This document shows, piece by piece, positions 23,600 through 51,785 of a DNA stretch of 64,000 bases. The translations under genes were made by a program, and so were the position numbers. The stretch's first letter is position 1. Each line of letters opens with the position of its first letter. The DNA is from an uncultured Bacteroidota bacterium. GTDB lineage: Bacteria; Bacteroidota; Bacteroidia; Flavobacteriales; Flavobacteriaceae. Location of the stretch: positions 1 to 64,000 of the forward strand of contig CACMHY010000003.1 of the NCBI GenBank assembly GCA_902613595.1. Reading direction: 5' to 3'. A model generated the notes under the pieces. That model saw only the letters and a list, made by a program, of their open reading frames with translations. It had not been told where the DNA came from and did not search any database.

Positions 23600-25273
23600 T
23601 TATGAATCAGTTACACATCCCTCTGATGCAGTAGCGACACTTTTTATATATTTATATAATACTCCTTGTTCAAATTTGTATGGTGGCTTTGTCCATTTTG
23701 CTTTCCTGACTTCTATCTCTTTATCGGAAATGTCAACATTTATAGTATTTTTTTGAGCATCAATGGTAATTTGATCTCCATCCTGAATAATTGCTATAAC
23801 ACCACCTTCTTGAGCCTCAGGTACAATATGCCCAACAACAAATCCATGCGTGCCTCCTGAAAAACGTCCATCAGTAATAAGAGCGACGCTTTTACCTAAT
23901 CCTGCACCCATAATCGCTGCAGTGGGCTTAAGCATTTCAGGCATTCCAGGTCCTCCTTTGGGTCCCTCGTAACGTATAACAACAACATCTCCAGACAAAA
24001 CTTTTCCAGATTTAATTCCCTGATTAGCAGCGAACTCTCCATCAAAAACTCTTGCTGGACCTCTAAAAACTAAACCCTCTTTACCTGTAATTTTAGCAAC
24101 TGATCCCTTTTCAGCAAGATTACCTTTTAAAATTCGAATATGGCCTGTTCTTTTAATTGGTTTATCAATAGATAGTATTACATCTTGGTTTGGAGATAGA
24201 GGAGAAACTTCTTTTAGATTTTCTTCTAAGGTCTTACCTGTAACAGTTATACAATCTCCATGTAACATACCTAATTCCAACATATATTTCATCACTGCTG
24301 GAACACCTCCAACAGCATGCAAATCTTTCATCAAATATTTCCCACTTGGCTTAAGATCAGCTAAAAATGGGGTTGAATCACTAATTTTCTGAAAATCATC
24401 AATGCTTAGATCAATTTGGGCTGCTTTTGCTATAGCTAAAAAATGAAGTACAGCATTTGTTGATCCACCAAGTACTGCAATTAAACGTAATGCATTTTCA
24501 AGAGATTTTCTTGTAAGAATATCACGAGGTTTTAAATCTTTTTCTAATAAACTTTTAAGATAAAAACCTAAATTTTCACATTCATCATTTTTTTGATCAC
24601 TTAAAGCAGGATTTGAAGAATTAAAAGGTAAAGACATCCCACATGCCTCTATAGCTGACGCCATTGTATTAGCTGTATACATACCCCCACACGCACCAGC
24701 TCCTGGACAAGCATTTTTTATTATGTTTTTGTATTCGGAGTCATCAATTTTTCCTGCAACCTTTTCACCCCAAGCTTCGAATGCAGATACAACGTCAAGC
24801 TCTTTATTGTTATGACATCCTGCTGCAATAGTTCCTCCATACATCAATATAGAAGGTCTATTCAACCGTAACATAGCCATAAGTGCTCCAGGCATATTTT
24901 TATCACACCCTACAATGGTAACCACACCATCATAAGACATCCCCTGTACCACTGTCTCAATAGAATCAGCAATAATATCTCTTGAAGGTAAGGAATATCG
25001 CATACCGGAAGTTCCCATAGATATTCCATCACTAACACCTATTGTATTGAAAATTAGACCAACCAAAGATTGCGAATTAATACCAGTTTTTATTTTTTGG
25101 GCAAGTCCATTCAAATGCATATTACATGGATTACCTTCATAGCCTGTAGATGCGATACCAATTAGAGGTTTTTGGAAATCATCATCTGACAGACCAATTG
25201 CGTGTAACATCGCCTGTGCTGCTGGCTGGGTAGGGTCTTGTGTGACTGCTTGACTATATTTATTAAGTTTCAT
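23600..25273 (-). CDS. ilvD: Dihydroxy-acid dehydratase
   Basis: A 557-residue iron-sulfur enzyme that dehydrates dihydroxy-acids to the 2-oxo acids of valine and isoleucine. The three cluster cysteines are seen in GNPCNMH (Cys50), GCDKNMPG and [12 protein letters not shown]. The first cysteine context (PCNMH) resembles the [2Fe-2S] type. An open TTG codon precedes it at 25276, but ATG 25273 is the natural start. It is the first gene of ilvDBNCA. The 205 bases upstream show no leader peptide rich in Ile, Leu or Val codons. Confidence 0.96.
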
Positions 25274-27639: not shown

Positions 27640-29616
27640 TTAATTATTGAAATTTAAATACTTCACTTTGGGGATTATCTTTGAATGATTTTGCAAACCA
27701 ATCTCAAGCCATTTATAAAAAGTTTTGGAGTCTACATATTGTATTGGTGAGTTTAATAAAGTACCATTAGGGTTCATAAGTATGTAAAATGGTTGTGAAG
27801 CTGTCTTAAAGTTTATTGCTTGAAAAGTAGCCCATTTTTTACCTACAGTATTTATTTTTCTAATAGACCCGTTAGGGTATTGATAGTCAAATTGGTCAGA
27901 AACATCTAATTTTTTTCTATCATCAACATAGAGTGAGATAATTATAAAATTATCTTTTAGTAAAGAATAAACTCTAGGTTCTGACCAAACATTTTCCTCC
28001 ATTTTTCTGCAATTTACGCATGCCCAGCCAGTAAAGTCTAACAGTATTGGCTTATTGAAATCAAATGCCTTTTCTCTTCCAATTTCAAAGTCCTTATAAC
28101 ATTCTAAACCTAAAGGACAGTCAGATTCATCGGCCTGAAAACTATAAAACACTGGTGGTGGAAAACCACTCAAAAATTTAAGGGTATTTTCCCTTGAGAA
28201 AAGACCAACTAAAAGATATATTGTTAATGCAAAAGAAAGTGAACTAAAAAAATATCTAAATTTTGATATGCTTTCTTTTTTCTGGTTGGGAAATTTTATA
28301 AACCCCAGAAGGTTCAAGGTAAGCATAAAGGTCAAAATAACCCATAAGCCTAAAAATATCTCTCTTTTCAGAATACCCCACCCAGCAACTAAGTCTGCAT
28401 TTGAAAGAAATTTTAATGCTAAGGCTAATTCTAAAAAACCTAAAATTACCTTTACTGAATTCATCCAACTCCCTGATTTGGGAAACTTTTCAAGTGAGTT
28501 GGGAAAAATTGCTAACAATCCAAAAGGCAGTCCTAATGCCAATCCAAAACCTAGCATACCAATAGATAATTGAAAAGCTCCCCCCTCGGATGTAAGTGAA
28601 CCTGCCAGCAAAGAACCTAAAATAGGACCTGTACATGAAAAAGAAACTATTGCCAATGTCAATGCCATAAAAAAGATACCAATAAAAGTATTCAATGACG
28701 AAGAATTATCTGTACGCATACTCCAAGATGTCGGTAGAGTCAATTCGTAAAATCCAAAAAAAGAAAAAGCAAAAATTATAAACACAACAAAAAAGATTAG
28801 GTTTAAGAAAATATTTGTAGCAATAGTATTTAGAAATTCAGGATTAAGTGAATCGATAAAATGGAATGGGAGACTAAGAATCAAATAAATTAATACAATG
28901 AAAATAGCATATACTGATGCATTAATAAGCCCACGTGAATTCGAACTTGATTGCTTTAAAAAATATGAAACCGTTAAAGGAATCATTGGAAATACACAAG
29001 GGGTCAATAGAGCCAAAAAACCGCCCAAAAACCCTAAAAGAAAAATATTATAATAAGAATATATTCCCTCTTCTAATTTAGGACCACTTAAAAAAGCTTT
29101 TTCTTTTAGTTCAAGTCTCAATGCATCCGAACGAATTTTACTTTCATCATCGACTAATTCGAATGAGGATTGTTTGAGCCCATCTAAATTGATTTTAAAG
29201 TTTTCTGTTCTAAAAATGCACAATTTATCATCGCATGCTTGATAATTTAATTCAATATTGATTGGCTCTAGACTGGAACTAAGCCTTTGAACTTTTTGAG
29301 AAAATAATGCATTTGATTCAAAATAAGAAAGCTCCATTTCGAAATAATTATCATATGATATTATGGGCTTACTTTCTTGAACATTTCTAATAAGTTTATA
29401 TGAAGGATTTTTATTAAAAATAAATTCCGTAGGGACAGCTCCACTAGGATCAGAAAATTGAGAATATAGGTGCCACTCGCCTGATATTTTTGCTTGAAAA
29501 TATATAGTATAAATACTATCATTTTCTTTTTTTACAGAGGTTTCCCATTTAATAGGTTCTATTATCTGAGCATTAATAGTCGTGCAGTATAGTATAAATA
29601 AGAGCCATTTTCTCAT
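27640..29616 (-). CDS. dsbD: DsbD-like thiol:disulfide interchange protein
   Basis: A 658-residue membrane reductant transporter. A signal peptide (residues 1-17) leads into a periplasmic alpha domain with the pair Cys128/Cys133 (QACDDKLC). A core of about eight membrane helices (190-470) carries the redox cysteines Cys207 (LTPCVFPMIPLT) and Cys328 (SFSCTGPILG). The C-terminal thioredoxin domain has Cys533-Val-Asn-Cys536. All three redox pairs of E. coli DsbD are therefore present. It would pass electrons from cytoplasmic thioredoxin to periplasmic proteins. It overlaps the tilS stop by 4 bases (ATGA). Confidence 0.93.
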   Translation of the reverse strand: MRKWLLFILYCTTINAQIIEPIKWETSVKKENDSIYTIYFQAKISGEWHLYSQFSDPSGAVPTEFIFNKNPSYKLIRNVQESKPIISYDNYFEMELSYFESNALFSQKVQRLSSSLEPINIELNYQACDDKLCIFRTENFKINLDGLKQSSFELVDDESKIRSDALRLELKEKAFLSGPKLEEGIYSYYNIFLLGFLGGFLALLTPCVFPMIPLTVSYFLKQSSSNSRGLINASVYAIFIVLIYLILSLPFHFIDSLNPEFLNTIATNIFLNLIFFVVFIIFAFSFFGFYELTLPTSWSMRTDNSSSLNTFIGIFFMALTLAIVSFSCTGPILGSLLAGSLTSEGGAFQLSIGMLGFGLALGLPFGLLAIFPNSLEKFPKSGSWMNSVKVILGFLELALALKFLSNADLVAGWGILKREIFLGLWVILTFMLTLNLLGFIKFPNQKKESISKFRYFFSSLSFALTIYLLVGLFSRENTLKFLSGFPPPVFYSFQADESDCPLGLECYKDFEIGREKAFDFNKPILLDFTGWACVNCRKMEENVWSEPRVYSLLKDNFIIISLYVDDRKKLDVSDQFDYQYPNGSIRKINTVGKKWATFQAINFKTASQPFYILMNPNGTLLNSPIQYVDSKTFYKWLEIGLQNHSKIIPKVKYLNFNN

Positions 29617-30905
29617 CTCAAATCGCGCATTAGTAATTTATTTTTTGTGTTTGGTCTTGCTAGAAATCTATTATCACACCGTTTTCCAATTATCCATACA
29701 ATTTCACCATTAGAACATAGCAACCATTGTTCCTCTTTGTCCAAAAGTGAATATTTTTCATCTTTGAAAAATTTACTAAGTAATTTTTTCCCCTTCATCC
29801 CAGAAGGATAAAAGTAATCGCCATTTTTATATTTCCTTAAAGATATTGGACTTTTCAAAGTTTCTCGATCTAAAAATACCTCATTATTTTTATGTGCCTT
29901 TTTTTCAAGATTTGAAATGTATTCCCATTTAATAGGAATTGGTAGTTTTAAATTTTTCTTATCAAGATCAATTAAGATTTCATTAATTTCTTTTTTTAAC
30001 AAGGGGGATAATATCAAATATTTTCTGTCACGAATTAAACGATATTTTTTACTAAGAATTAGCTTTCCGGGTGAAGAAAATACTAATTTTTCTACTTCTT
30101 TAGAATTAAATCCCAAAGGGAAAAAAAAATGGTGTAGAATGAAACTTAATGGTTTTATTTTTTTTAAAGATTCAATGAATACGTATGTATGCTTATTTTT
30201 TTTAATAAAAAGCTCTTTTTTGAGCTTATCAAACTGATTAGAAATAAATTCTTGAGCATCTTTAAGGTGTACTAATGTTTTTTTGAAATTTTCAAGAGTT
30301 TTTGGTTTATGGTTCTCGAAAGATTTTACTACCTGATGTCTAATTATATTACGAAAATAATCTTCACTAGTATTTGATGAGTCTTCTCTCCATTCCAAAT
30401 TATTTTTTTTTGCGTAATCAAGAATTTGCATTTTTGTTACGTTAAGTAAAGGCCTAAGTAGTTTGTTTGATTCAGGAATTCCTGCCAAACCAAAAATACC
30501 TGACGCCCTTGATGCATTCATTAAAAAAGTTTCAAACTGATCATTTAAATGATGTGCCGTTACTAAATAATCAAAACCTTTGTTAGTACTGAGTTGACTA
30601 AACCATTTATATCTTAAATCACGGGCCGCCTCTTGAATACCTTTTTTATTTTTTAGTTTGTTATCTTTCAAATTAAATATTTTATGATAAAATTTAATTC
30701 TATTTTTTTTGCACCACTTTTTTACAAATAACAAATCATTATCACTTTCTTCACCTCTTAATTGAAAATTACAATGTGCCACTGAAAATTTAATTTTACT
30801 ACGAATTAAAATATCACTGAGGACACAACTATCCACACCACCACTATGAGCTAAAAGAATAGTTTTATTAGTAAGTTTTTTAAGATTTAAATTAATCTCA
30901 GACAT
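29613..30905 (-). CDS. tilS: tRNA(Ile)-lysidine synthase
   Basis: A 430-residue enzyme that converts the wobble cytidine of tRNA-Ile(CAU) to lysidine. The PP-loop LLAHSGGVDSCVL is at about residues 17-29, and the conserved TAHHLNDQFET segment follows near 120. The C-terminal domain includes NGEIVWIIGKRCDNRF. The very lysine-rich sequence reflects the AT-rich genome. It is the first gene of a tilS-dsbD unit with its own consensus-like promoter, and it diverges from the arginine operon. Confidence 0.94.
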   Translation of the reverse strand: MSEINLNLKKLTNKTILLAHSGGVDSCVLSDILIRSKIKFSVAHCNFQLRGEESDNDLLFVKKWCKKNRIKFYHKIFNLKDNKLKNKKGIQEAARDLRYKWFSQLSTNKGFDYLVTAHHLNDQFETFLMNASRASGIFGLAGIPESNKLLRPLLNVTKMQILDYAKKNNLEWREDSSNTSEDYFRNIIRHQVVKSFENHKPKTLENFKKTLVHLKDAQEFISNQFDKLKKELFIKKNKHTYVFIESLKKIKPLSFILHHFFFPLGFNSKEVEKLVFSSPGKLILSKKYRLIRDRKYLILSPLLKKEINEILIDLDKKNLKLPIPIKWEYISNLEKKAHKNNEVFLDRETLKSPISLRKYKNGDYFYPSGMKGKKLLSKFFKDEKYSLLDKEEQWLLCSNGEIVWIIGKRCDNRFLARPNTKNKLLMRDLR

Positions 30906-30960: not shown

Positions 30961-30992
30961 TGAGAAAAGAGATTTTTTTTTTTGTTTTCTCA
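30961..30992. repeat. Inverted repeat upstream of the arginine leader
   Basis: TGAGAAAA (30961-30968) and TTTTCTCA (30985-30992) form a perfect 8-bp inverted repeat around a T-rich centre. The right arm overlaps the spacer of the proposed arginine promoter, so it may be an operator for an arginine regulator. Being made of A/T-runs, it could also be chance. Confidence 0.4.
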
Positions 30993-31011
30993 GATTTTTA
31001 CATGAATTTTG
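30982..31011 (+). promoter_or_regulatory. Candidate promoter of the arginine operon
   Basis: TTG (30982-30984), 19 bases, then GAATTTTG (31004-31011), one mismatch from TAnnTTTG. Transcription would begin near 31017, almost at the ATG of the leader ORF (31019), so the leader message would be nearly leaderless. Confidence 0.4.
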
Positions 31012-31018
31012 TATAATC

Positions 31019-31105
31019 ATGTCAGAAAATAAATTTTTTAGTTTAATTGCATTTTCAACGATAACCAATATTTCTCTCCTGCGTTATCGCCCCATTGGGG
31101 TGTAA
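31019..31105 (+). CDS. Candidate leader peptide of the arginine operon
   Basis: A 28-codon ORF lies between the proposed promoter and the first arginine gene. It begins MSENKFFSLIAF and ends SLLRYRPIGV before TAA. The last ten codons use CTC, CTG, CGT, CGC, CCC, GGG and GTG, rare in this AT-rich genome, and bases 31076-31105 are 17/30 G or C. Two Arg codons sit just before the end. The position 64 bases before the GNAT gene and the hairpin at its end suggest attenuation by arginine supply or nascent-peptide arrest. This is inference; translation is not proven and I do not recall a described family. Confidence 0.5.
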   Translation: MSENKFFSLIAFSTITNISLLRYRPIGV

Positions 31106-31137
31106 CCTTTTTTGGAGTATGGTAAGCCCTTCTCCCC
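31088..31137 (+). promoter_or_regulatory. Competing hairpins at the end of the arginine leader (attenuator candidate)
   Basis: Bases 31088-31102 can form a 6-bp stem (C-G, G-U, then CCCC with GGGG) closed by loop AUU over the last leader codons. The same GGGG (31097-31100) can instead pair with CCCC (31134-31137), and GGAG (31114-31117) with CUCC (31132-31135). The folds are mutually exclusive. No T-run follows, so control of translation or Rho access is likelier than an intrinsic terminator. Confidence 0.45.
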
Positions 31138-31169
31138 TTCATCTCATTTTACATTTCACTTAAATAATT

Positions 31170-31754
31170 ATGAAAATTTTACACGCAAGAGCGGAACACA
31201 TTATATATTCAAAAGAAATAAGTCTTTGCATCGATGAATCAGCAAAGGTTAGGGGTACTGGTATTGCCCGAAGGACACCTGAATATATTGCTAAAAAAAT
31301 TGAAAATAGAAATGCTGTTATAGCTCTAGATTTAGAAAAATTTGCAGGTTTTTGTTATATAGAAATTTGGGGACATGGAAAATATGTTGCACATTCCGGA
31401 CTAATAGTTGCTCCAAATTACAGAGGAAAAGGACTAGCAAGAAAAATAAAAAAACAGGTTTTTGAACTTTCCCTCAAAAAATATCCAAAAGCTAAAGTCT
31501 TCGGAATTACTACTGGTATGCCTGTAATGAAAATAAATTATGACCTTGGCTATAAACCAGTTCACTTTTCAGAATTAACAGATGATCCAGAATTTTGGAA
31601 AGGATGTCAAACTTGTAAAAATTATGACATCTTGACAAGAACAGAAAGACAAATGTGTTTATGCACTGGAATGTTATACGATCCAGAACAAAATAAAAGA
31701 AAGACTAACCAGAATAAAAATATTAGATCAAATTTATTTTACAAAAAAAAATAA
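31170..31754 (+). CDS. GNAT acetyltransferase heading the arginine operon
   Basis: A 194-residue GNAT-fold acyltransferase. The acyl-CoA loop is in VAPNYRGKGLARKI (about residues 87-100). The C-terminal part has clustered cysteines in WKGCQTCKNYD and QMCLCTGMLYDP, which could bind metal. It is the first gene of the arginine operon, the window has no argA or argJ, and a GNAT at this place is usual in Bacteroidota. It is therefore the candidate glutamate N-acyltransferase (acetyl or succinyl) that starts the pathway; this is an inference from context. The argG ATG is 2 bases downstream. Confidence 0.82.
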   Translation: MKILHARAEHIIYSKEISLCIDESAKVRGTGIARRTPEYIAKKIENRNAVIALDLEKFAGFCYIEIWGHGKYVAHSGLIVAPNYRGKGLARKIKKQVFELSLKKYPKAKVFGITTGMPVMKINYDLGYKPVHFSELTDDPEFWKGCQTCKNYDILTRTERQMCLCTGMLYDPEQNKRKTNQNKNIRSNLFYKKK

Positions 31755-31755
31755 A

Positions 31756-32949
31756 ATGGAACAAGAAAAAGTAGTTTTAGCTTATAGTGGTGGATTAGAT
31801 ACCTCATATTGTCTTAAGAAATTATCTCAAGAAAACAATGAAGTACATGCAGTTTGTATAAATACGGGAGGATTCTCAGATAATGATATTAAATCAATGG
31901 AAAAAAGAGCTTATGAAATAGGTGCTTATAGGTATAAAAACGTAGACGGTTTAGAAACTTTTTATAACAAAATTGTTAAATATTTAATTTTTGGAAATGT
32001 ACTTAAAAATAATACCTACCCTTTATCTGTGAGTGCTGAAAGAATTATTCAGGCTGTTGAAATAGTTTCCTATGCTAAATCAATAAATGCAAAATATATA
32101 GCCCACGGTAGTACAGGAGCAGGGAACGATCAAGTTCGTTTTGATATGATCTTTCAAATTTTAGCTCCAGAAATTGAAATTATTTCACTAATTAGAGATC
32201 AAAACCTCTCAAGAGAAAGTGAGATTAAATATTTAAATTCTCATGGGATAAACATATCTTGGGAGAAAGCTAAATACTCAATTAATACAGGACTATGGGG
32301 TACAAGTGTAGGCGGTGCTGAAACATTAAACTCTCGGGATCCTTTACCCGAGTCAGCCTACCCAAGTAAAGTGATTAAATCTGAATCAGAAGAATTACAA
32401 ATAGAATTCAAAACTGGTGAACTATTTGCTATTAATGGAAAAAAAGGTAAACCATTCGAGTTAATTCAAAGACTACAAATTTTAGCAAGAGATTTTGGAA
32501 TAGGCCGTGATATTCATATTGGTGACACTATCATAGGGATTAAGGGAAGAGTTGGATTTGAGGCTGCAGCTCCAATTATAATCATTAAGGCACACCATCT
32601 TTTAGAAAAACACACACTGAGTAAATGGCAACTTTTTCAAAAAGAACAACTAAGTAATTTTTATGGAATGCAGCTACACGAAGGACACTATTTAGATCCT
32701 GTCATGAGAGATTTAGAAGCATTTATGGAAAGTAGTCAGAAAAAAGTTAGCGGTAAGGTATATCTTAAATTACATCCTTACAGGTATGACCTTGAGGGAA
32801 TTGATTCTCCACACGATTTAATGTTAACAAAATTAGGTAAATACGGAGAAATTAATGAAGGTTGGACAGCTGAAGAAGCAAAAGGATTTATCAAATTAAC
32901 CGGAAATTCGTCAAAAATATATCACTATTTAAATAAAAAAGATGATTAG
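31756..32949 (+). CDS. argG: Argininosuccinate synthase
   Basis: A 397-residue enzyme joining citrulline and aspartate with ATP. The PP-loop is LAYSGGLDTSYC (residues 8-19), with the downstream HGSTGAGNDQVRFD segment binding citrulline/aspartate. The length fits the short ArgG type. It is second in the operon; the argC start lies inside its last codons (8-base overlap), so the two are translationally coupled. The early place of a late-pathway gene is common in Bacteroidota arginine clusters. Confidence 0.95.
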   Translation: MEQEKVVLAYSGGLDTSYCLKKLSQENNEVHAVCINTGGFSDNDIKSMEKRAYEIGAYRYKNVDGLETFYNKIVKYLIFGNVLKNNTYPLSVSAERIIQAVEIVSYAKSINAKYIAHGSTGAGNDQVRFDMIFQILAPEIEIISLIRDQNLSRESEIKYLNSHGINISWEKAKYSINTGLWGTSVGGAETLNSRDPLPESAYPSKVIKSESEELQIEFKTGELFAINGKKGKPFELIQRLQILARDFGIGRDIHIGDTIIGIKGRVGFEAAAPIIIIKAHHLLEKHTLSKWQLFQKEQLSNFYGMQLHEGHYLDPVMRDLEAFMESSQKKVSGKVYLKLHPYRYDLEGIDSPHDLMLTKLGKYGEINEGWTAEEAKGFIKLTGNSSKIYHYLNKKDD

Positions 32950-33913
32950 AGTAGGAGTTGTTGGTGGTTCTGGTTATACAGGTGGAGAGCTTATTAGATT
33001 AATTCTTCAACACCCCTCTATGGAATTAGATTTTGTCTATAGTAGGTCTAAAGAAGGTGAAAAAATTTCGACCTGCCATGCTGATTTATTGGGTCAAAGC
33101 GAAATAAAATTTACAAACAAAATAAATAAAAATATTGATGTTGTCTACTTGTGTTTAGGTCATGGTAACTCATTAGAGTTTTTGAAAAATAACAATTTCT
33201 CCAAAAAAACATTGATAGTTGATTTAGGTAATGATTTTAGATTAAAAAGGGATAGTAATTTTAATGGGCGAAATTTTGTTTACGGTCTTCCTGAACTACA
33301 AAGAGAAAAAATTAAATCCTCAGATTCTATAGCAAACCCAGGCTGTTTTGCCACAGCTATTCAATTATCTATTTTACCTCTTGCACAAAATCAAAATTTA
33401 AAAAATACTTTACACATCAACGCTACAACTGGGAGTACAGGTGCAGGAATTAGCCTTAATCCAACATCCCACTTTAGTTGGAGAAACAATAACTTCTCGT
33501 GGTATAAGCCATTTAAACATCAACACTTAAAAGAAATACATCAAAGTGTAAATCAATTAGGCAGTAATCCACAAATTAATTTTCTTCCTAATCGTGGTAA
33601 TTTTACAAGAGGAATTTTTTCAACTTGCTACACTGAACATAGTGGGAGCCTTAATGATGTCAAAAGGATTTATAAAAACTTTTACAAGGAGCACCCATTT
33701 ACATTAATATCTGAAAATGAAATTAGTTTAAAATCTGTAATTAATAGTAACTACTGTTTTTTGCATTTGTACAAACACGAAAATATATTATTAATCACAA
33801 GTATTCTTGACAATCTAATTAAAGGAGCCGCAGGTCAGGCAATACAAAATACAAATATTATTATGGGCTGGGAAGAAGATGCGGGACTTCAACTAAAGGC
33901 CTCAACTTTTTAA
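32942..33913 (+). CDS. argC: N-acyl-gamma-glutamyl-phosphate reductase
   Basis: A 323-residue reductase of the acylated arginine pathway. The NADP-binding motif is VVGGSGYTGGELIR at the N-terminus, and the catalytic Cys lies in IANPGCFATAIQLS. The conserved HQHLKEI segment supplies the active-site His. It converts acylglutamyl phosphate to the semialdehyde. The annotation of acetyl or succinyl substrate is left open, as for ArgF'. It overlaps argG by 8 bases and precedes proC by 9. Confidence 0.95.
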   Translation: MIRVGVVGGSGYTGGELIRLILQHPSMELDFVYSRSKEGEKISTCHADLLGQSEIKFTNKINKNIDVVYLCLGHGNSLEFLKNNNFSKKTLIVDLGNDFRLKRDSNFNGRNFVYGLPELQREKIKSSDSIANPGCFATAIQLSILPLAQNQNLKNTLHINATTGSTGAGISLNPTSHFSWRNNNFSWYKPFKHQHLKEIHQSVNQLGSNPQINFLPNRGNFTRGIFSTCYTEHSGSLNDVKRIYKNFYKEHPFTLISENEISLKSVINSNYCFLHLYKHENILLITSILDNLIKGAAGQAIQNTNIIMGWEEDAGLQLKASTF

Positions 33914-33922
33914 AATAAAAAA

Positions 33923-34717
33923 ATGAAAATAGCTGTCATTGGAACTGGAAATTTAGGCCTAAGTATTGCAAAGGGTCTAATAATTAATAACACCCACACA
34001 ACTTTATATTTAACAAAAAGGAATTTAGATTCAATTGAATTTATGAAAGAATATAAAAATGTTTTTGTCTCAAAAGATAATAATGAGGCAGTTAAAAATT
34101 CGGATATTTTAATTTTAGCCGTTCAGCCCAATCAATTAGACAATGTTTTGGAAAATATTAGTCCAAATCTGAAGGAAAATCATATAGTAATATCAACGGT
34201 TACAGGATATACTCTTAAACGTGTAGAAGAAATTATCGGAAATAAATTACCAATTATAAGATCAATGCCTAATACGGCTATATCCGTGAGAAAATCTATG
34301 ACATGTCTTTGTAGTAATATAAAAGGGAAAAAGGTTTTAGCAATTGCAGAAGCTATATTTAATGGCTTAGGAACAACTTTAATTATTGATGAAAGCCATA
34401 TGCAAGCTGCTACAGTTTTATGTGCAAGTGGAATCGCTTTCTGGATGAGATTAATTAGAGCTACCACACAAGGTGGTGTTCAATTAGGTTTTGATGCAGA
34501 TGTAGCATTAAAAATGTCAATGCAAACTGCTATGGGTGCATCCAGTCTTCTTATTGAAACAGGTACGCACCCTGAAGAAGAGATAGATAGAGTGACAACA
34601 CCAAGGGGTTGTACAATTACGGGTTTAAATGAAATGGAGCATCAAGGACTGAGTTCATCACTAATTAGAGGTCTTAATGCATCTTTTGATAAAATAAATG
34701 AAATCGCTAATCAATAA
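33923..34717 (+). CDS. proC: Pyrroline-5-carboxylate reductase
   Basis: A 264-residue reductase for the last step of proline synthesis. The Rossmann motif IGTGNLGLSIAKGL is at residues 6-19, and the C-terminal signature reads TPRGCTITGLNEME. The family is normally 265-280 residues, so it is complete. It sits inside the arginine operon between argC and argD, linking proline and arginine output from glutamate semialdehyde chemistry. proA and proB are not in the window. Confidence 0.94.
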   Translation: MKIAVIGTGNLGLSIAKGLIINNTHTTLYLTKRNLDSIEFMKEYKNVFVSKDNNEAVKNSDILILAVQPNQLDNVLENISPNLKENHIVISTVTGYTLKRVEEIIGNKLPIIRSMPNTAISVRKSMTCLCSNIKGKKVLAIAEAIFNGLGTTLIIDESHMQAATVLCASGIAFWMRLIRATTQGGVQLGFDADVALKMSMQTAMGASSLLIETGTHPEEEIDRVTTPRGCTITGLNEMEHQGLSSSLIRGLNASFDKINEIANQ

Positions 34718-34731
34718 TAAATCCAAAATAA

Positions 34732-35871
34732 ATGAATTTATTTGATGTATATCCACTTTATGAAGTAAAGCCTAGCAGTGCGAAAGATGTCTATGTCTAT
34801 GATAATCAAGGTACAAAATATTTAGATCTGTATGGCGGTCATGCGGTTATATCTATTGGTCATAGTCACCCTCATTATATTAAACAAATAAAAGATCAAT
34901 TGGATCAAATTGCATTTTATTCTAATGCGATTCAAAATCCACTTCAAAAAAGATTGGCAGATGCAATAGGCGAACACTCTTCACTTGATAATTATGAACT
35001 TTTCTTATGCAATAGTGGCGCAGAAGCAATTGAAAACGCTCTAAAACTAGCTTCGTTTCATACCCAAAAAAGAAGGATAGTTGCATTTAAAAATTCATTT
35101 CATGGAAGAACCTCTGCAGCCGTTGCAGCCACAGACAATGCAAAAATTACAGCCCCATTAAATGAACAACAGGCGGTTACTTTTTTACCATTTAATGATC
35201 TTATAGCTTTAGAAGTTGAGCTTGCTAAAGGGGATGTTTGCGCAGTAATTTTTGAAGCAATTCAGGGAGTAGGTGGATTGGATGAACCAAATGAAAAATT
35301 TGTTTACGGGATGGAAAAACTTTGTGAGAAATACCATAGCTCTCTGGTGGCGGATGAAGTCCAATCAGGTTTTGGACGATCAGGAACTTTTTTTGCTTTT
35401 CAAAAGTTCAAAATAAATCCTGACATCATCACAATGGCCAAAGGTATGGGGAATGGTTTTCCAATTGGTGGGATTTTAGTTAATCCAAAAATAAATGCAA
35501 CTCACGGTCTTCTCGGAACTACGTTTGGCGGAAACCATCTTGCGTGTAGAGCATCACTTGCAGTTCTAGATATTATTAAAAAAGATAATCTACAAGAAAA
35601 GACTAAATCTCTTGAAAAATATTTTAAAAATAAAGCATCTTCAATAAAGAAAATAAAGAAAATTAAAGGTAGGGGATTGATGTTAGGTTTAGAATTTGAT
35701 TTTGAAGTGTCTTCTTTGAGAAAAAAATTAATTTATGATTATAAAATTTTTACTGGAGGAAGCAGTAATAAAAATCTTATAAGAATATTGCCTCCTCTTA
35801 CAATACAAGAAAAACATTTTGAATACTTTTTCAAGTCACTTGAAAAGGAAATGGAAAAAAACTACAATTAA
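34732..35871 (+). CDS. argD: Acylornithine aminotransferase
   Basis: A 379-residue class III PLP aminotransferase. The PLP lysine lies in TMAKGMGNGFPIGG, and other signatures are SNAIQNPLQKRLA, SGAEAIENALKLA and VADEVQSGFGRSG. In the operon it would convert acylglutamate semialdehyde to acyl-ornithine. It could also act on free ornithine, since ornithine aminotransferases share the fold. Its stop is directly followed by the argF' ATG, with no intergenic bases. Confidence 0.93.
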   Translation: MNLFDVYPLYEVKPSSAKDVYVYDNQGTKYLDLYGGHAVISIGHSHPHYIKQIKDQLDQIAFYSNAIQNPLQKRLADAIGEHSSLDNYELFLCNSGAEAIENALKLASFHTQKRRIVAFKNSFHGRTSAAVAATDNAKITAPLNEQQAVTFLPFNDLIALEVELAKGDVCAVIFEAIQGVGGLDEPNEKFVYGMEKLCEKYHSSLVADEVQSGFGRSGTFFAFQKFKINPDIITMAKGMGNGFPIGGILVNPKINATHGLLGTTFGGNHLACRASLAVLDIIKKDNLQEKTKSLEKYFKNKASSIKKIKKIKGRGLMLGLEFDFEVSSLRKKLIYDYKIFTGGSSNKNLIRILPPLTIQEKHFEYFFKSLEKEMEKNYN

Positions 35872-36819
35872 ATGGAACAATTTCTAACTCTTAACGATCT
35901 GCCTAGCCTTAGTGAGGCTGTAAATGAGGCCATTGAACTAAAAAAAAATCCATTTGCTTTTAAATCACTTGGAAATCAAAAAAGTTTAGGTATGCTTTTT
36001 TTTAATCCTAGTCTAAGAACGCGCCTAAGTTCACAAAAAGCAGCGCAACTTTTGGGATTAAAAACAATGATAATGAATTTTTCAAACGAAGCATGGGCAT
36101 TAGAATTTGAGGATGGTACTCAAATGAGTGGTTTGCGCTCCGAGCATATTAAAGAAGCTGCAGCTGTTGTTTCACAATATTGCGATATGGTTGGAATAAG
36201 AGCTTTTGCGAGTTTAAATAGCAAAGAAAATGATGAGAACGAAATTGTTCTTAAAAGTTTTATAAAATATGCGAGTATACCAGTTATTAACATGGAAAGT
36301 GCTACTGCACACCCACTTCAAGCTTTAGCTGATGCTATTACAATTAAAGAAAAGAATAAAGTAAAACGTCCAAAAATTGTCCTTACATGGGCTCCTCATC
36401 CAAAAGCATTACCACATGCGGTTGGAAATTCATTTGTTAGGATGGCAAACAATATAGATTGTGATTTAGTTATTGCTCAACCTAAAGGTTATGAGTTAAA
36501 TCCCCTAATTATAGGCGACAACACTATAGTTTACAACCAAGAAGAAGCATTAGAAGGTGCTGATTTTGTCTATGCTAAAAATTGGTGTTCATATTCGGAT
36601 TATGGAAAAATTTTAAAAACTGACGACACATGGATGATAACAGCAGAAAAAATGAAACTTACAAATAATGCAAAATTTATGCATTGTTTGCCAATTAGAA
36701 GAAATATAGTTGCATCAGATGAAGTTTTGGATAGTAATAATTCATTAATTATTGAACAAGCAAATAATAGGACATATTCTGCTCAATTAGTATTAAAAAA
36801 AATACTAGAAAATGGATAA
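35872..36819 (+). CDS. argF': N-acyl-L-ornithine carbamoyltransferase (ArgF' type)
   Basis: A 315-residue transcarbamylase of the Bacteroidota ArgF' group, which carbamoylates acetyl- or succinyl-ornithine rather than ornithine. The carbamoyl-phosphate loop is FFNPSLRTRLSSQKAA (residues 43-58), HPLQALAD follows, and the HCLPIRRN segment is near the end. Aligned without gaps to the Bacteroides fragilis enzyme as I recall it, the specificity position 90 is Ser in GLRSEH; the succinyl enzyme has Pro and the Xanthomonas acetyl enzyme Glu. The acyl group is therefore not predictable. It overlaps argB by 8 bases. Confidence 0.92.
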   Translation: MEQFLTLNDLPSLSEAVNEAIELKKNPFAFKSLGNQKSLGMLFFNPSLRTRLSSQKAAQLLGLKTMIMNFSNEAWALEFEDGTQMSGLRSEHIKEAAAVVSQYCDMVGIRAFASLNSKENDENEIVLKSFIKYASIPVINMESATAHPLQALADAITIKEKNKVKRPKIVLTWAPHPKALPHAVGNSFVRMANNIDCDLVIAQPKGYELNPLIIGDNTIVYNQEEALEGADFVYAKNWCSYSDYGKILKTDDTWMITAEKMKLTNNAKFMHCLPIRRNIVASDEVLDSNNSLIIEQANNRTYSAQLVLKKILENG

Positions 36820-37585
36820 ATTACATGTTGTCAAAATTGGTGGAAAAGTAATTGAAAACAAGGATTCCTTAATTTCGTTTTTAGAAGACTTTGCTAGCCT
36901 AGAAGATTCAAAAATTTTAGTCCATGGCGGTGGTAATGAAGCTAATAGTATATCTAAAAAAATAGGTTTAGAAATTAAAATTGAAGGAGGAAGAAGAATT
37001 ACAGATTCAGATAGTCTTGATCTTATAACAATGATCTATGCAGGGAAAATAAATAAAAAAATCGTTTCACTTCTTCAGTCAATTTCTTGCAACGCTTTGG
37101 GAATTTCTGGTGCAGACGGAAATGCTTACTCTGCGATAAAAAGACCCATACAGGATATTGATTTTGGTTTTGTCGGCGATTTAACGGGAATAAATATTCC
37201 ATTTTTTACAGGGCTAATTAAACAAAATATTGTTCCTGTTTGTTGTTCAGTTACACATGACAGAAAAGGACAGCTTCTAAATACAAATGCCGATACAATT
37301 GCTGCTTCAATTGCATCAGCTTTATCTAAAAATTTTAAAGTTATACTAACATATTGCTTCGAAAAAATGGGAGTTCTAGAAAATATTGATGATGAAAAGT
37401 CTGTTATACCTTTTATTGATACGGAAAAATATCATGAACTTAAAAATACAGGAACTATATCCCAAGGTATGATGCCTAAATTGCATAATTGTTTCGAATC
37501 TTTAGAAAAAGGTGTTCAAGAAATTCGTATTGGAAACTCAAGTATTTTTTCACAAAAAAATCAATTTACTAAAATTAAAAAGTAA
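36812..37585 (+). CDS. argB: N-acylglutamate kinase
   Basis: A 257-residue amino-acid kinase. The N-terminal VVKIGGKVIE binds phosphate, followed by LVHGGGNEANSI (near residue 38) and ISGADGNAYSAIK. ATP and acylglutamate would give acylglutamyl phosphate. Arginine feedback via an N-terminal helix, as in hexameric enzymes, is not expected because that extension is missing. Its ATG lies in the argF' end and its stop overlaps the argE ATG by one base (TAATG). Confidence 0.93.
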   Translation: MDKLHVVKIGGKVIENKDSLISFLEDFASLEDSKILVHGGGNEANSISKKIGLEIKIEGGRRITDSDSLDLITMIYAGKINKKIVSLLQSISCNALGISGADGNAYSAIKRPIQDIDFGFVGDLTGINIPFFTGLIKQNIVPVCCSVTHDRKGQLLNTNADTIAASIASALSKNFKVILTYCFEKMGVLENIDDEKSVIPFIDTEKYHELKNTGTISQGMMPKLHNCFESLEKGVQEIRIGNSSIFSQKNQFTKIKK

Positions 37586-38634
37586 TGTTGAATCAAAGAG
37601 CAATAAAACTATTACAGGATTTGATTGAAATAGAGTCTTTCTCTAAAAATGAATCAGGAACTGCAAAACGCCTTGAGAAATGGTTTCAAGATTCCAATAT
37701 ACCTTTTCAAAGAAAGGAAAATAATTTATGGGCTGTAAATAAATCGTTTGATCCTAAAAAACCAACTTTATTACTTAATTCACATCACGATACAGTTCTT
37801 CCGAATAAAGCTTATACTAGAGATCCTTTTAAAGCCGACATTTTAGATGGTAAATTATATGGTCTAGGTAGTAATGATGCAGGTGGAGCATTAGTTTCTC
37901 TTTTGGCTTGCTTTAATTATTTCTACAAAAATCCAAACTTGAAATATAATCTATTAATGGTAGCCTCTGCCGAAGAAGAAACTGCAGGGGATAAAAGTTT
38001 ACGTTATTTAATACCCTACTTACCTAAGATTGACTTTGCCATAATTGGAGAGCCTACTCAAATGGAATTAGCAATTGCAGAGAAAGGTTTGGTTGTTTTT
38101 GATATTGAAATTAAAGGAACACCAAGTCACGCTGCACATCCCAATAAGGATAATCCACTTATGAAATTACCTGAAATAATTAAAAAAATCGAAAATATTT
38201 CTTTTGAAAAGGTCTCACCAATTTTGGGTCCCGTAAAATTAACACTCACACAAATTAATGCTGGTAGTCAGCATAATGTAGTTCCATCCGAAGTGAAATT
38301 GGTACTTGATGTCAGGGTTAATGAATGCTATCAAAATCATGAGATTGATGAAGTGATACAAAAAGCTTTACCTTGTAATGTAAAAGCAAGATCACTACAC
38401 CTAAAAAGTTCTTCTATAAGTATTGATCATCCAATTGTAAAAGCTGGAGAAAAGTTAGGAAGAAAAACATATGGGTCCCCTACCCTATCAGATCAAGCGT
38501 CATTGAGCTGCCCTTCTTTAAAACTTGGTCCTGGAGACTCTACTCGCTCACATTCTGCTGATGAATTTATTTATATAAAAGAAATTGAGGAAGGTATTTC
38601 AATTTATAACAATTTACTAAAACAAATAATTTAA
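37585..38634 (+). CDS. argE: M20 family deacylase (acylcitrulline/acylornithine deacetylase)
   Basis: A 349-residue M20 metallopeptidase fold. Metal ligands appear in NSHHDTVLP (His), GSNDAGGALVS (Asp) and ASAEEETAG (catalytic Glu and ligand). The dimerisation lid domain lies in the middle (about 170-270). In this operon, where the transcarbamylase works on acylated substrate, it should release citrulline from acylcitrulline; this follows from known ArgF' pathways and not from the sequence alone. One base separates its stop from the argH start. Confidence 0.9.
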   Translation: MLNQRAIKLLQDLIEIESFSKNESGTAKRLEKWFQDSNIPFQRKENNLWAVNKSFDPKKPTLLLNSHHDTVLPNKAYTRDPFKADILDGKLYGLGSNDAGGALVSLLACFNYFYKNPNLKYNLLMVASAEEETAGDKSLRYLIPYLPKIDFAIIGEPTQMELAIAEKGLVVFDIEIKGTPSHAAHPNKDNPLMKLPEIIKKIENISFEKVSPILGPVKLTLTQINAGSQHNVVPSEVKLVLDVRVNECYQNHEIDEVIQKALPCNVKARSLHLKSSSISIDHPIVKAGEKLGRKTYGSPTLSDQASLSCPSLKLGPGDSTRSHSADEFIYIKEIEEGISIYNNLLKQII

Positions 38635-38635
38635 T

Positions 38636-39919
38636 ATGAAACTTTGGCAAAAAAAAGGAAATATCCTAAACGAAAAAGTTGACTCTTTCACTGTAGGAAA
38701 AGACCGAGAATATGATATGGTGCTTGCACAATTTGATTGTGAAGCTTCAATAGCACACGTTAAAATGCTCGGAAGAGTAGGATTAATAAATAATGATGAG
38801 GTTAAACAACTCTGTTTAGTCTATGATGAAATTAAAAAAGAAATAAAAAATAAAACTTTTAAAATTGAAAAGGAATTTGAAGATGTACATTCAAAAATCG
38901 AATATTTTTTAACCAAAAGACTTGGAGAAGTTGGGAAAAAAGTTCATACTGCAAGATCAAGAAATGATCAGGTATTAGTTGCTATGCATCTTTATGTTAA
39001 AAAAGAATTAAGTGAAATTAAAACCAAAATAATTAAGCTTTTTGATCTACTTCTATCATTAGCAAAAAAATATCAGGATAACCTACTCCCTGGTTATACA
39101 CATCTCCAAATTGCAATGCCCTCATCTTTTGGCTTATGGTTTTCTGCTTATGCTGAATGTTTAATAGATGATCTGTACTTTTGGCAAAGTGCATATAAAA
39201 TTACAGATCAAAATCCACTTGGAAGTGCAGCAGGTTACGGAAGTTCATTTCCAATAGACAGAGATTTAACTACTAAAATATTAGGGTTTTCAGAGCTTAA
39301 GATTAATTCTGTTGCTGCACAGATGAGTAGAGGAAAGCTTGAAAAAAGTGTTGCAATTTCTTTATCAGCTTTTGGAGATACTCTTTCAAAACTATGTATG
39401 GATATATGTCTTTATATGGGACAAGATTATGATTTTATTTCATTTCCTAATGATTTGACTACTGGTTCGAGTATTATGCCTCACAAAAAAAATCCAGATT
39501 TGTTTGAATTAGCAAGGGCAAAATTTAATATGATTAAAGGATTACCAAATCAGCTCACCCTTTTAACATCAAATCTTCCAAGCGGCTATCATAGAGATCT
39601 GCAACAAGCTAAAGGCGCAATAATTGAATCTATTAATGAAACTAAAGCATGTTTAGAAATTCTACTTTTAAGTTTACCCAAAATCAAAGTCTCAAATAAT
39701 ATTACCGATCAAAAAAAATATGACCATCTTTTCACAGTTGAATCGCTAAACAAAGAAGTTTTAAAAGGAGAGACATTTAGGGATGCTTATAGAAACTTGT
39801 CAAATGTTATAGAAAAAGGAGAATTTAAACCTGATCGAAAAGTAAAACACAAACATATTGGAAGCTTGGGTAATTTAGGAATAGATAGATTAAAAGAAAA
39901 GATTAAACCTTTCTTATAA
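38636..39919 (+). CDS. argH: Argininosuccinate lyase
   Basis: A 427-residue member of the fumarase/aspartase superfamily that releases arginine and fumarate. The signature loop GSSIMPHKKNPD contains the catalytic Ser, and HTARSRNDQV and PGYTHLQIAMP are other conserved blocks. The C-terminal domain is shorter than in E. coli ArgH (457 residues). It is the last gene of the operon. No clear terminator is seen in the 47 bases before the convergent lpdA. Confidence 0.95.
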   Translation: MKLWQKKGNILNEKVDSFTVGKDREYDMVLAQFDCEASIAHVKMLGRVGLINNDEVKQLCLVYDEIKKEIKNKTFKIEKEFEDVHSKIEYFLTKRLGEVGKKVHTARSRNDQVLVAMHLYVKKELSEIKTKIIKLFDLLLSLAKKYQDNLLPGYTHLQIAMPSSFGLWFSAYAECLIDDLYFWQSAYKITDQNPLGSAAGYGSSFPIDRDLTTKILGFSELKINSVAAQMSRGKLEKSVAISLSAFGDTLSKLCMDICLYMGQDYDFISFPNDLTTGSSIMPHKKNPDLFELARAKFNMIKGLPNQLTLLTSNLPSGYHRDLQQAKGAIIESINETKACLEILLLSLPKIKVSNNITDQKKYDHLFTVESLNKEVLKGETFRDAYRNLSNVIEKGEFKPDRKVKHKHIGSLGNLGIDRLKEKIKPFL

Positions 39920-51700: not shown

Positions 51701-51785
51701 GGAGAAATGGCAGAGTGGTCGAATGCGGCAGTCTTGAAAACTGTTGAGGGTCACACCTCCGGGGGTTCGAATCCCTCTTTCTCCG
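51701..51785 (+). tRNA. tRNA-Ser (anticodon UGA)
   Basis: An 85-base class II tRNA. The acceptor arms GGAGAAA (51701-51707) and TTTCTCC (51778-51784) pair fully, with G as discriminator. The anticodon loop CTTGAAA gives UGA (reads UCA), the long variable arm is GAGG-CCTC, and the T-loop is TTCGAAT. The 3' CCA is not encoded (GCA follows). A terminator is 11 bases downstream. It lies between a convergent TSUP gene and an accessory region. Confidence 0.97.

Follow-up and report, generated by a model that had tools for sequence, protein, structure and literature searches.

The window (the whole stretch of DNA analyzed here, 64,000 nucleotides in length) belongs to a 1.9 Mb genome of an uncultured member of the Flavobacteriaceae. 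It carries an arginine operon that starts with a gene for a GNAT-family acetyltransferase and continues with argG and the other genes listed in Table 1. The gene names are NCBIfam best matches, several of which, argG included, are below the NCBI curated cut-off. The GNAT protein displays no NCBIfam match at E 1e-10; a role as N-acetylglutamate synthase is conceivable. Its closest named matches (the best 80 of 490) are from uncultured marine Bacteroidetes/Flavobacteriaceae and include Flavobacteria bacterium MS024-2A. On the other side of the leader lies tilS (positions 29613–30905, from NCBIfam), which is encoded on the opposite strand.

Upstream of the GNAT gene, which starts at position 31170, there is an open reading frame of 28 codons with 64 bases between its end and the GNAT start, in agreement with the preliminary description of this DNA. 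The end of this open reading frame forms a hairpin (termed H2), a second hairpin (H3) follows it, and an H1-like stem is possible within it. H3 had been overlooked in the preliminary description, as had the lack of G in the spacer behind it and the third Arg codon of the nearest relatives.

Table 1. Positions of the leader features and operon genes in the window.
Feature	Positions	Strand	Detail or basis
TTTG of possible Bacteroidetes-type promoter (−7 element)	31008–31011	+	7 nt before leader ATG
Leader ORF, 28 codons, MSENKFFSLIAFSTITNISLLRYRPIGV (then stop)	31019–31105	+	sequence; same place in genus
Possible H1-like stem of window clade, CGATAAC (31059–31065) : GUUAUCG (31083–31089)	31059–31089	+	sequence
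Arg codons CGT (31082–31084) and CGC (31088–31090), TAT between	31082–31090	+	CGC is the 5′ base of H2
Hairpin H2, CGCCCC-AUU-GGGGUG	31088–31102	+	six pairs, −8.4 kcal/mol; near-invariant in alignment A4
Hairpin H3, GGAG-UAU-GG-UAAG-CC-CUU-CUCC	31114–31135	+	covariation
Spacer between H3 and GNAT start, without any G	31136–31169	+	sequence
GNAT-family acetyltransferase, first operon gene	31170–31754	+	Pfam PF00583, E 1.5e-6
argG, argC, proC, argD, N-acetylornithine carbamoyltransferase, argB, argE/dapE-type deacylase, argH	31756–39919	+	NCBIfam best matches

Comparable leaders were collected from 113 candidate loci, i.e. the best 80 of 490 GNAT loci, from named contigs, 30 covariance-model loci and three genomes of the genus. 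From these, 107 leaders were parsed, 89 of which are non-redundant and 85 have a readable picked ORF. Among the unparsed loci, L046 begins inside the leader, and the rule on loop or spacing excluded L053, L058, L083, L204 and L208. Leaders L034, L055, L197 and L203, whose ORF was mis-picked or cut, were left out of the codon counts; the proper reading of the ends is CRRPNGV in L034, YPRRP in L197 and RRTSVRV in L203.

The leader peptide of the window ends in LLRYRPIGV. The three nearest relatives of the window have a third Arg codon (FRLRYRP) at a position where the window has Leu, and many members of the genus display a richer end, e.g. MSEHYQHTNLSSNATFPLRRPRRRPFGV followed by the stop codon in L047. 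The start of H2 is in frame with the leader ORF in all 85 readable non-redundant leaders, and the first triplet of H2 is CGC in 81 of them. Arginine accounts for 346 of 2292 leader codons (15.1%) compared with 89 of 2905 residues (3.1%) in the proteins of the window's operon. Codon choice also differs: CGC and CGT make up 321 of the 350 Arg codons of 88 picked ORFs, as against 11 of 89 in the window's operon.

Beyond its arginines the peptide chain varies, and the recurring residues are Arg and a Pro that is encoded by the hairpin. With the last R-P of each peptide (R-T in one case) taken as the anchor, an additional Arg precedes the last one in 77/85 leaders; since the residue profile was aligned in this way, on R-P or RTFV, the Arg and Pro at the anchor are present by construction. 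The stop codon directly follows R-P in 53 of the 85 leaders and thus falls within the H2 loop. In another 24 it lies three codons past the Pro, mostly as P-x-G/W-V-stop, which is the form found in the window. Conservation of the C-terminal RYRPIGV, as had been proposed, was therefore not found, R-R-P-stop being the commonest end. In L202 and L203 Thr replaces the Pro. Changes before H2 in 21 independent close pairs of leaders number 44, 39 and 70 at codon positions 1, 2 and 3, which fits translation of the leader ORF. By eye, an ACATA-like word is seen early in many of the leader ORFs, e.g. L047, L081 and L060.

The six pairs of H2 agree with the hairpin given in the preliminary description. 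Its energy is matched by 3 of 200 dinucleotide shuffles. Larger regions are less distinct, positions 31088–31137 being matched by 20/200 shuffles and positions 30990–31175 by 33/200. The folding energy of the leader region is thus unremarkable, and it is conservation instead that sets the region above chance. The H2 pairs hardly vary and the covariation of H2 is therefore thin; L202 and L203, however, have CGCAC:GUGCG in place of CGCCC:GGGUG. The predicted probability of H2 is greater than 0.5 in 50 of 87 free leader RNAs, a count in which rows with a mis-picked ORF or H2 are unreliable (in L060-type rows the automatic choice of H2 is shifted by one codon).

H3 displays the strongest covariation in the leader, its arms giving a z of −10.3 in an alignment-free swap test with 71 leaders. 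In alignment A4 (54 sequences) six of the eight H3 pairs have changed on both sides, a number that is reached by 35 of 500 shuffles. H2 and H3 taken together pair in 93.3% of cells in these 54 sequences and have a covariation of 0.300, compared with 0.137 when shuffled (0/500 reach the observed value) and at most 0.129 when slid. Compensatory changes in the two hairpins of the preliminary description had been proposed as a check. They are strong in H3; H2 is near-invariant with the exception of L202 and L203, and the second fold originally proposed, a GGGG:CCCC pairing considered below, is not conserved. The distance from the H2 start to the inner GG of H3 is nearly fixed at 31–36 nt. In most other species the apical part of H3 is GGUGNGYCC, although H3 was located with a loop pattern and the loop conservation is partly the outcome of this selection. 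L053 and L058 retain, by eye, an H3-like stem with the inner GG and CC and another loop 45–85 nt upstream of GNAT, which suggests that the H3 loop can be exchanged. The AGGUG of H3 looks similar to the complement of the 16S rRNA 3′ tail.

The arms of H1 covary at the family level (z about −6, same swap test and 71 leaders). Compared with synonymous-codon shuffles the mean z is −0.98, and 30 of 85 leaders are below −1.5; H1 is thus backed in a part of the leader set only. In the free RNA of the window the H1-like stem has a probability of 0.04–0.05.

The leader is present in 24 of 25 genomes of the window's genus and is also found widely in the family. This supports the earlier proposal of an arginine leader peptide with a structured end upstream of GNAT-argG, and both ORF and stem are conserved in close relatives. 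No GNAT gene was found in the 25th genome (G021). A BLAST search covering 40 genomes, 25 of them of the genus, detected a core at about positions 31087–31136 in 21 of the 25, each beside GNAT and argG; G023 is cut by a contig end. For three of the four genus genomes that were missed by BLAST the GNAT gene served as locator, and the leader is present in each.

A covariance model of H2 plus H3 (R2) was searched in 395 genomes of the order. Matches with E below 1e-5 are found in 34 genomes, all of the window's family and the window's own included, with one copy each; 34 is the number of R2-positive genomes among the 395 of the order and is not a fraction of the family. All 34 strong matches are located upstream of the same GNAT gene. 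A second scan covered 395 genomes of the phylum, and none of its matches outside the family was convincing. Covariance-model matches outside the family were rejected since by eye the one in G737 resembles coding sequence and the one in G694 a repeat array, and the 2 kb around them has no GNAT gene. A weak match within the family (G394), with no GNAT gene in 1.7 kb, was likewise rejected. Many matches to R1 outside of the family resembled 16S rRNA by eye.

No such leader was seen by eye within 280 nt upstream of GNAT in two genomes of family f5 and in five of genus g17 (perhaps Flavobacterium). A genome of family f3 (G026) has an arginine leader with H2 and without an H3-type loop, and one of family f2 (G025) has an Arg-rich ORF end and a possible H2. 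The leader with H2 may thus predate H3.

At the gathering score the only Rfam match in the window is a tRNA at positions 51701–51785. The leader itself gives one chance-level match (E 4.9) and 16 related loci give none. A known Rfam cis-regulatory element (riboswitch, T-box or leader family) was ruled out as there is no match. A second short ORF after H2 (MEYGxPFS..., by eye) was also rejected, given that its ATG is replaced by TTG in the window clade, that it contains an in-frame TAG in G016, and that throughout the family H3 shows the covariation of an RNA.

The spacer between H3 and GNAT has a median length of 47 nt in the 89 leaders, with a composition of 5.0% G and 19.3% C. Control upstream regions (81) have 16.1% G and 17.0% C; the Mann-Whitney p value versus the spacers is 6e-19, with the rows being related sequences. 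A G-poor spacer fits a Rho entry stretch and also a plain need for open RNA. From the end of H2 to the GNAT start there are 67 nt in the window and 68–91 nt in the 89 leaders.

At the 5′ end, 70 of 88 leaders have a TTTG no more than 22 nt ahead of the leader start, with a median gap of 7 nt, and the full TAnnTTTG, the consensus of the Bacteroidetes −7 promoter element, is found in 21/88; these counts are partly due to selection, since a T-rich upstream word was favored in the choice of leader starts. With the TTTG at 7 nt before the ATG in the window, the leader transcript may be near-leaderless. This would not be the norm, as part of the text of a study of Flavobacterium johnsoniae gives leaders of more than 10 nt for 87% of predicted transcripts (PMC6847099).

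With respect to trans-acting factors, the ArgR C-terminal domain (PF02863, E 0.001) was found in none of the 395 genomes of the order, which include that of the window (85% complete). The same search detected the domain in 8 of the 14 genomes that served as controls, including Bacteroides. ArgR was likewise not found in the g17 and f5 genomes that are without the leader. Rho is present in 10/10 genomes tested.

Leaders of other amino acid operons occur in the same genomes. Threonine leaders upstream of thrA in the family (L171 in G280, L172 in G338, L173 in G133, L174 in G397 and L176 in G382) have Thr codons that run into an H2-like hairpin, e.g. MTAQTRVATAATTFTTTTITTP followed by the stop codon, where a Thr codon is at the hairpin base. 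The same layout shows that the codon at the hairpin base is not limited to arginine. H3 has been seen in the arginine leader only and not in the threonine leaders. Among four threonine leaders scanned three have no terminator and one displays a 6-pair pattern; the threonine leader of G104 (family f5) has a strong terminator. Upstream of thrA in the window's own genome (L175, G000:C1) no Thr-rich ATG leader was seen, unlike the five larger relatives.

Upstream of hisG the window's own genome (L147, G000:C6) has a classical his leader, MKTLLHHIHHFENCSNEK and a stop codon, with an intrinsic terminator. Leaders of ilv genes were also seen among the genomes examined, a branched-chain leader being present in G382, G280 and G026. 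The window carries ilvD on the minus strand (positions 24218–25171), and no branched-chain leader was seen upstream of it.

Taken together, the leader is probably a cis-acting, ribosome-gated sensor of arginine that controls the whole arginine operon. The best clue to the mechanism is the register between codons and H2. The short, probably near-leaderless ORF would be translated up to its CGC and CGT codons, the last of which is the 5′ base of H2. With charged tRNA-Arg scarce, the ribosome would wait at the Arg codons and its footprint would keep H2 open. With arginine plentiful it would reach the stop codon, which mostly lies inside the H2 loop, and be released, and H2 would close. As a ribosome at the last Arg codon would cover H2 and one that has finished would leave at or just after it, closed H2 would signal enough arginine. 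Closed H2, together with H3 at its fixed distance and the G-poor spacer, would then lower expression of GNAT-argG and the later genes. The sign of the response is taken from the biosynthetic role of the operon; the anatomy does not fix it, as H2 would remain free if the ribosome stalled at the earlier Arg codons.

The most likely route from H2 to the operon would be termination by RNA polymerase, either with Rho entering at the G-poor spacer or through weak termination at H2; a factor binding to H3 is the other candidate link. Termination is favored because the GNAT start is 67 nt past H2 in the window and no conserved structure was seen that reaches it. As a tentative extension, arginine and threonine operons of the family may share a terminator-free attenuator whose switch hairpin has the regulatory codon as its base, and in the arginine operon H3 with its GGUGNGYCC loop may dock a partner (an RNA-binding protein, the Rho/NusG machinery or the 16S 3′ tail) by which ribosome position is converted into operon output.

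A classical transcription attenuator of the his/trp type, as had been suggested, is unlikely. Here the terminator would consist of H2 and its U-rich flank, and its formation would be prevented by a stalled ribosome or by an upstream arm. A home-made scan of the stretch from H2 to GNAT, checked on 5 of 8 ilv loci and 5 of 8 thr loci, shows a hairpin-plus-U-rich pattern in 27 of 89 leaders; the longest stem has 5–11 pairs and H2 is nearly always the stem. However, local shuffles give nearly as many (mean 21.7, range 16–27 in 20 rounds), thus there is no excess of terminator-like patterns, and 62/89 leaders are without one. In the window the U run begins 5 nt past the H2 stem. Classical attenuators do exist in the order, as the same scan flags all eight his upstream regions used as controls, five of which are in genomes carrying the arginine leader.

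Nor did the swap test show a clear antiterminator pairing. The GGGG of H2 had been proposed to pair alternatively with CCCC at positions 31134–31137. The CCCC is present in the window, but only 9 of 89 leaders have a CCCC within 14 nt past the H3 loop, and duplexes between the 3′ side of H2 and the 3′ side of H3 are weaker in a leader's own pairs than in swapped ones (z up to +5.5). In the swap test H1 or the Arg region shows no clear pairing with H3 (z at least −2.1 among the pairs listed). There are weak signals with z from −2.9 to −5.0, e.g. the early ORF with the 3′ side of H3 (−5.0, at very low energy) and the 5′ region of H1 with the 3′ side of H2 (−3.3). Masking of a ribosome on the last Arg codon raises the predicted probability of H3 in the window from 0.05 to 0.97, and some other leaders gain H3 likewise; among the window's three nearest relatives H3 is clearly up in two and high throughout in one. 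Over the whole set H3 is predicted to form in 48 of 87 free leaders and in 49 of 87 masked ones. A switch between H3 and H1 or the Arg region was rejected, given that some leaders go the opposite way, the totals are unmoved and there is no clear covariation.

It is improbable that H3 is the main element, i.e. a protein- or metabolite-binding RNA hairpin that the ORF merely tunes. Such a role would agree with the covariation of H3 being the strongest, with its conserved loop (partly a product of the search pattern), and with H3 not being seen by eye in threonine leaders. However, L053, L058, L083 and, in another family, G026 have H2 without the H3 loop pattern, and thus the ORF with H2 looks like the more widespread part. 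The Arg codons and their register are also too regular to be idle, and a hairpin of 22 nt, with no Rfam match, is small for a riboswitch.

Least probable, and very doubtful, is the nascent-peptide arrest that had also been suggested, in which R-R-R-P-stop would stall the terminating ribosome on free arginine or ornithine and so block Rho: the majority position of the stop codon, the presence of Rho and the G-poor spacer would suit it, but little of the peptide apart from Arg is conserved, the stop is displaced in the second group, the Thr of L202 and L203 weakens Pro-stop arrest as a general rule, the Pro of threonine leaders likewise comes from the C run of the hairpin and is absent in two of five, and arginine-induced arrest should increase expression when arginine is high, which for a biosynthetic operon is the wrong sign unless the coupling is inverted.

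The ribosome-gated sensor has several implications. With no ArgR domain found in the 395 genomes of the order, it offers a testable answer to how arginine synthesis may be controlled there. The leader defines an RNA family that is absent from the Rfam copy searched, and its attenuator layout, which has no terminator, is seen again in threonine leaders. In uncultured genomes the leader would allow arginine status to be deduced from the sequence; H3 is a handle on a possible regulatory partner.

In searches of an open-licence library no paper came up that is recognizable as a description of an arginine leader in Bacteroidetes. Available portions of a study of Flavobacterium psychrophilum report clues for leader-peptide attenuation upstream of amino acid operons and name pheA and hisG elements that are present in other genera (PMC9723704); argG is absent from its main text, where "arginine" occurs a single time, in another context. 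Among leader-ORF candidates of other bacteria none was seen for arginine in the portion of PMC8632094 consulted.

The nearest layouts in the texts consulted are from another phylum. According to sections of PMC1262725, the mycobacterial cys operons have predicted short ORFs with runs of regulatory codons near their ends and no terminator, and Rho was suggested; a review cites Canestrari et al. 2020 for leaderless poly-cysteine ORFs (PMC9031893, in part). These leaders have cysteine codons rather than arginine codons, and according to the same sections they show no conserved hairpins that might act as terminators (PMC1262725); in the arginine leader, by contrast, both H2 and H3 are conserved. 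The actinobacterial LEU element, as presented there, resembles the arginine leader in that regulatory codons join a conserved RNA fold, but it pairs Leu codons with the Shine-Dalgarno box of leuA, while the hairpin of the arginine leader is local (PMC1262725).

Among the better known systems a separate comparison concerns peptides that arrest the ribosome. TnaC and SpeFL are arrest-peptide leaders that act with Rho. The arginine leader resembles them in the stop codon at the decision point, and a Rho step may be a further similarity. Unlike them, the arginine leader has no conserved arrest peptide beyond its Arg residues, and a logic of tRNA-Arg charging would be expected rather than ligand-induced arrest.

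Leader-peptide attenuators of his, ilv and thr operons are known from other bacteria. The arginine leader has in common with these a short ORF upstream of the cognate operon, a run of codons for the product amino acid, and hairpins around it. It differs in having no terminator above the level of shuffled sequences and no clear antiterminator, in the regulatory codon being the base of a hairpin, and in the additional conserved H3. As the terminator, a defining feature of the classical kind, is what it lacks, the arginine leader is classed as a variant of leader-peptide attenuation.
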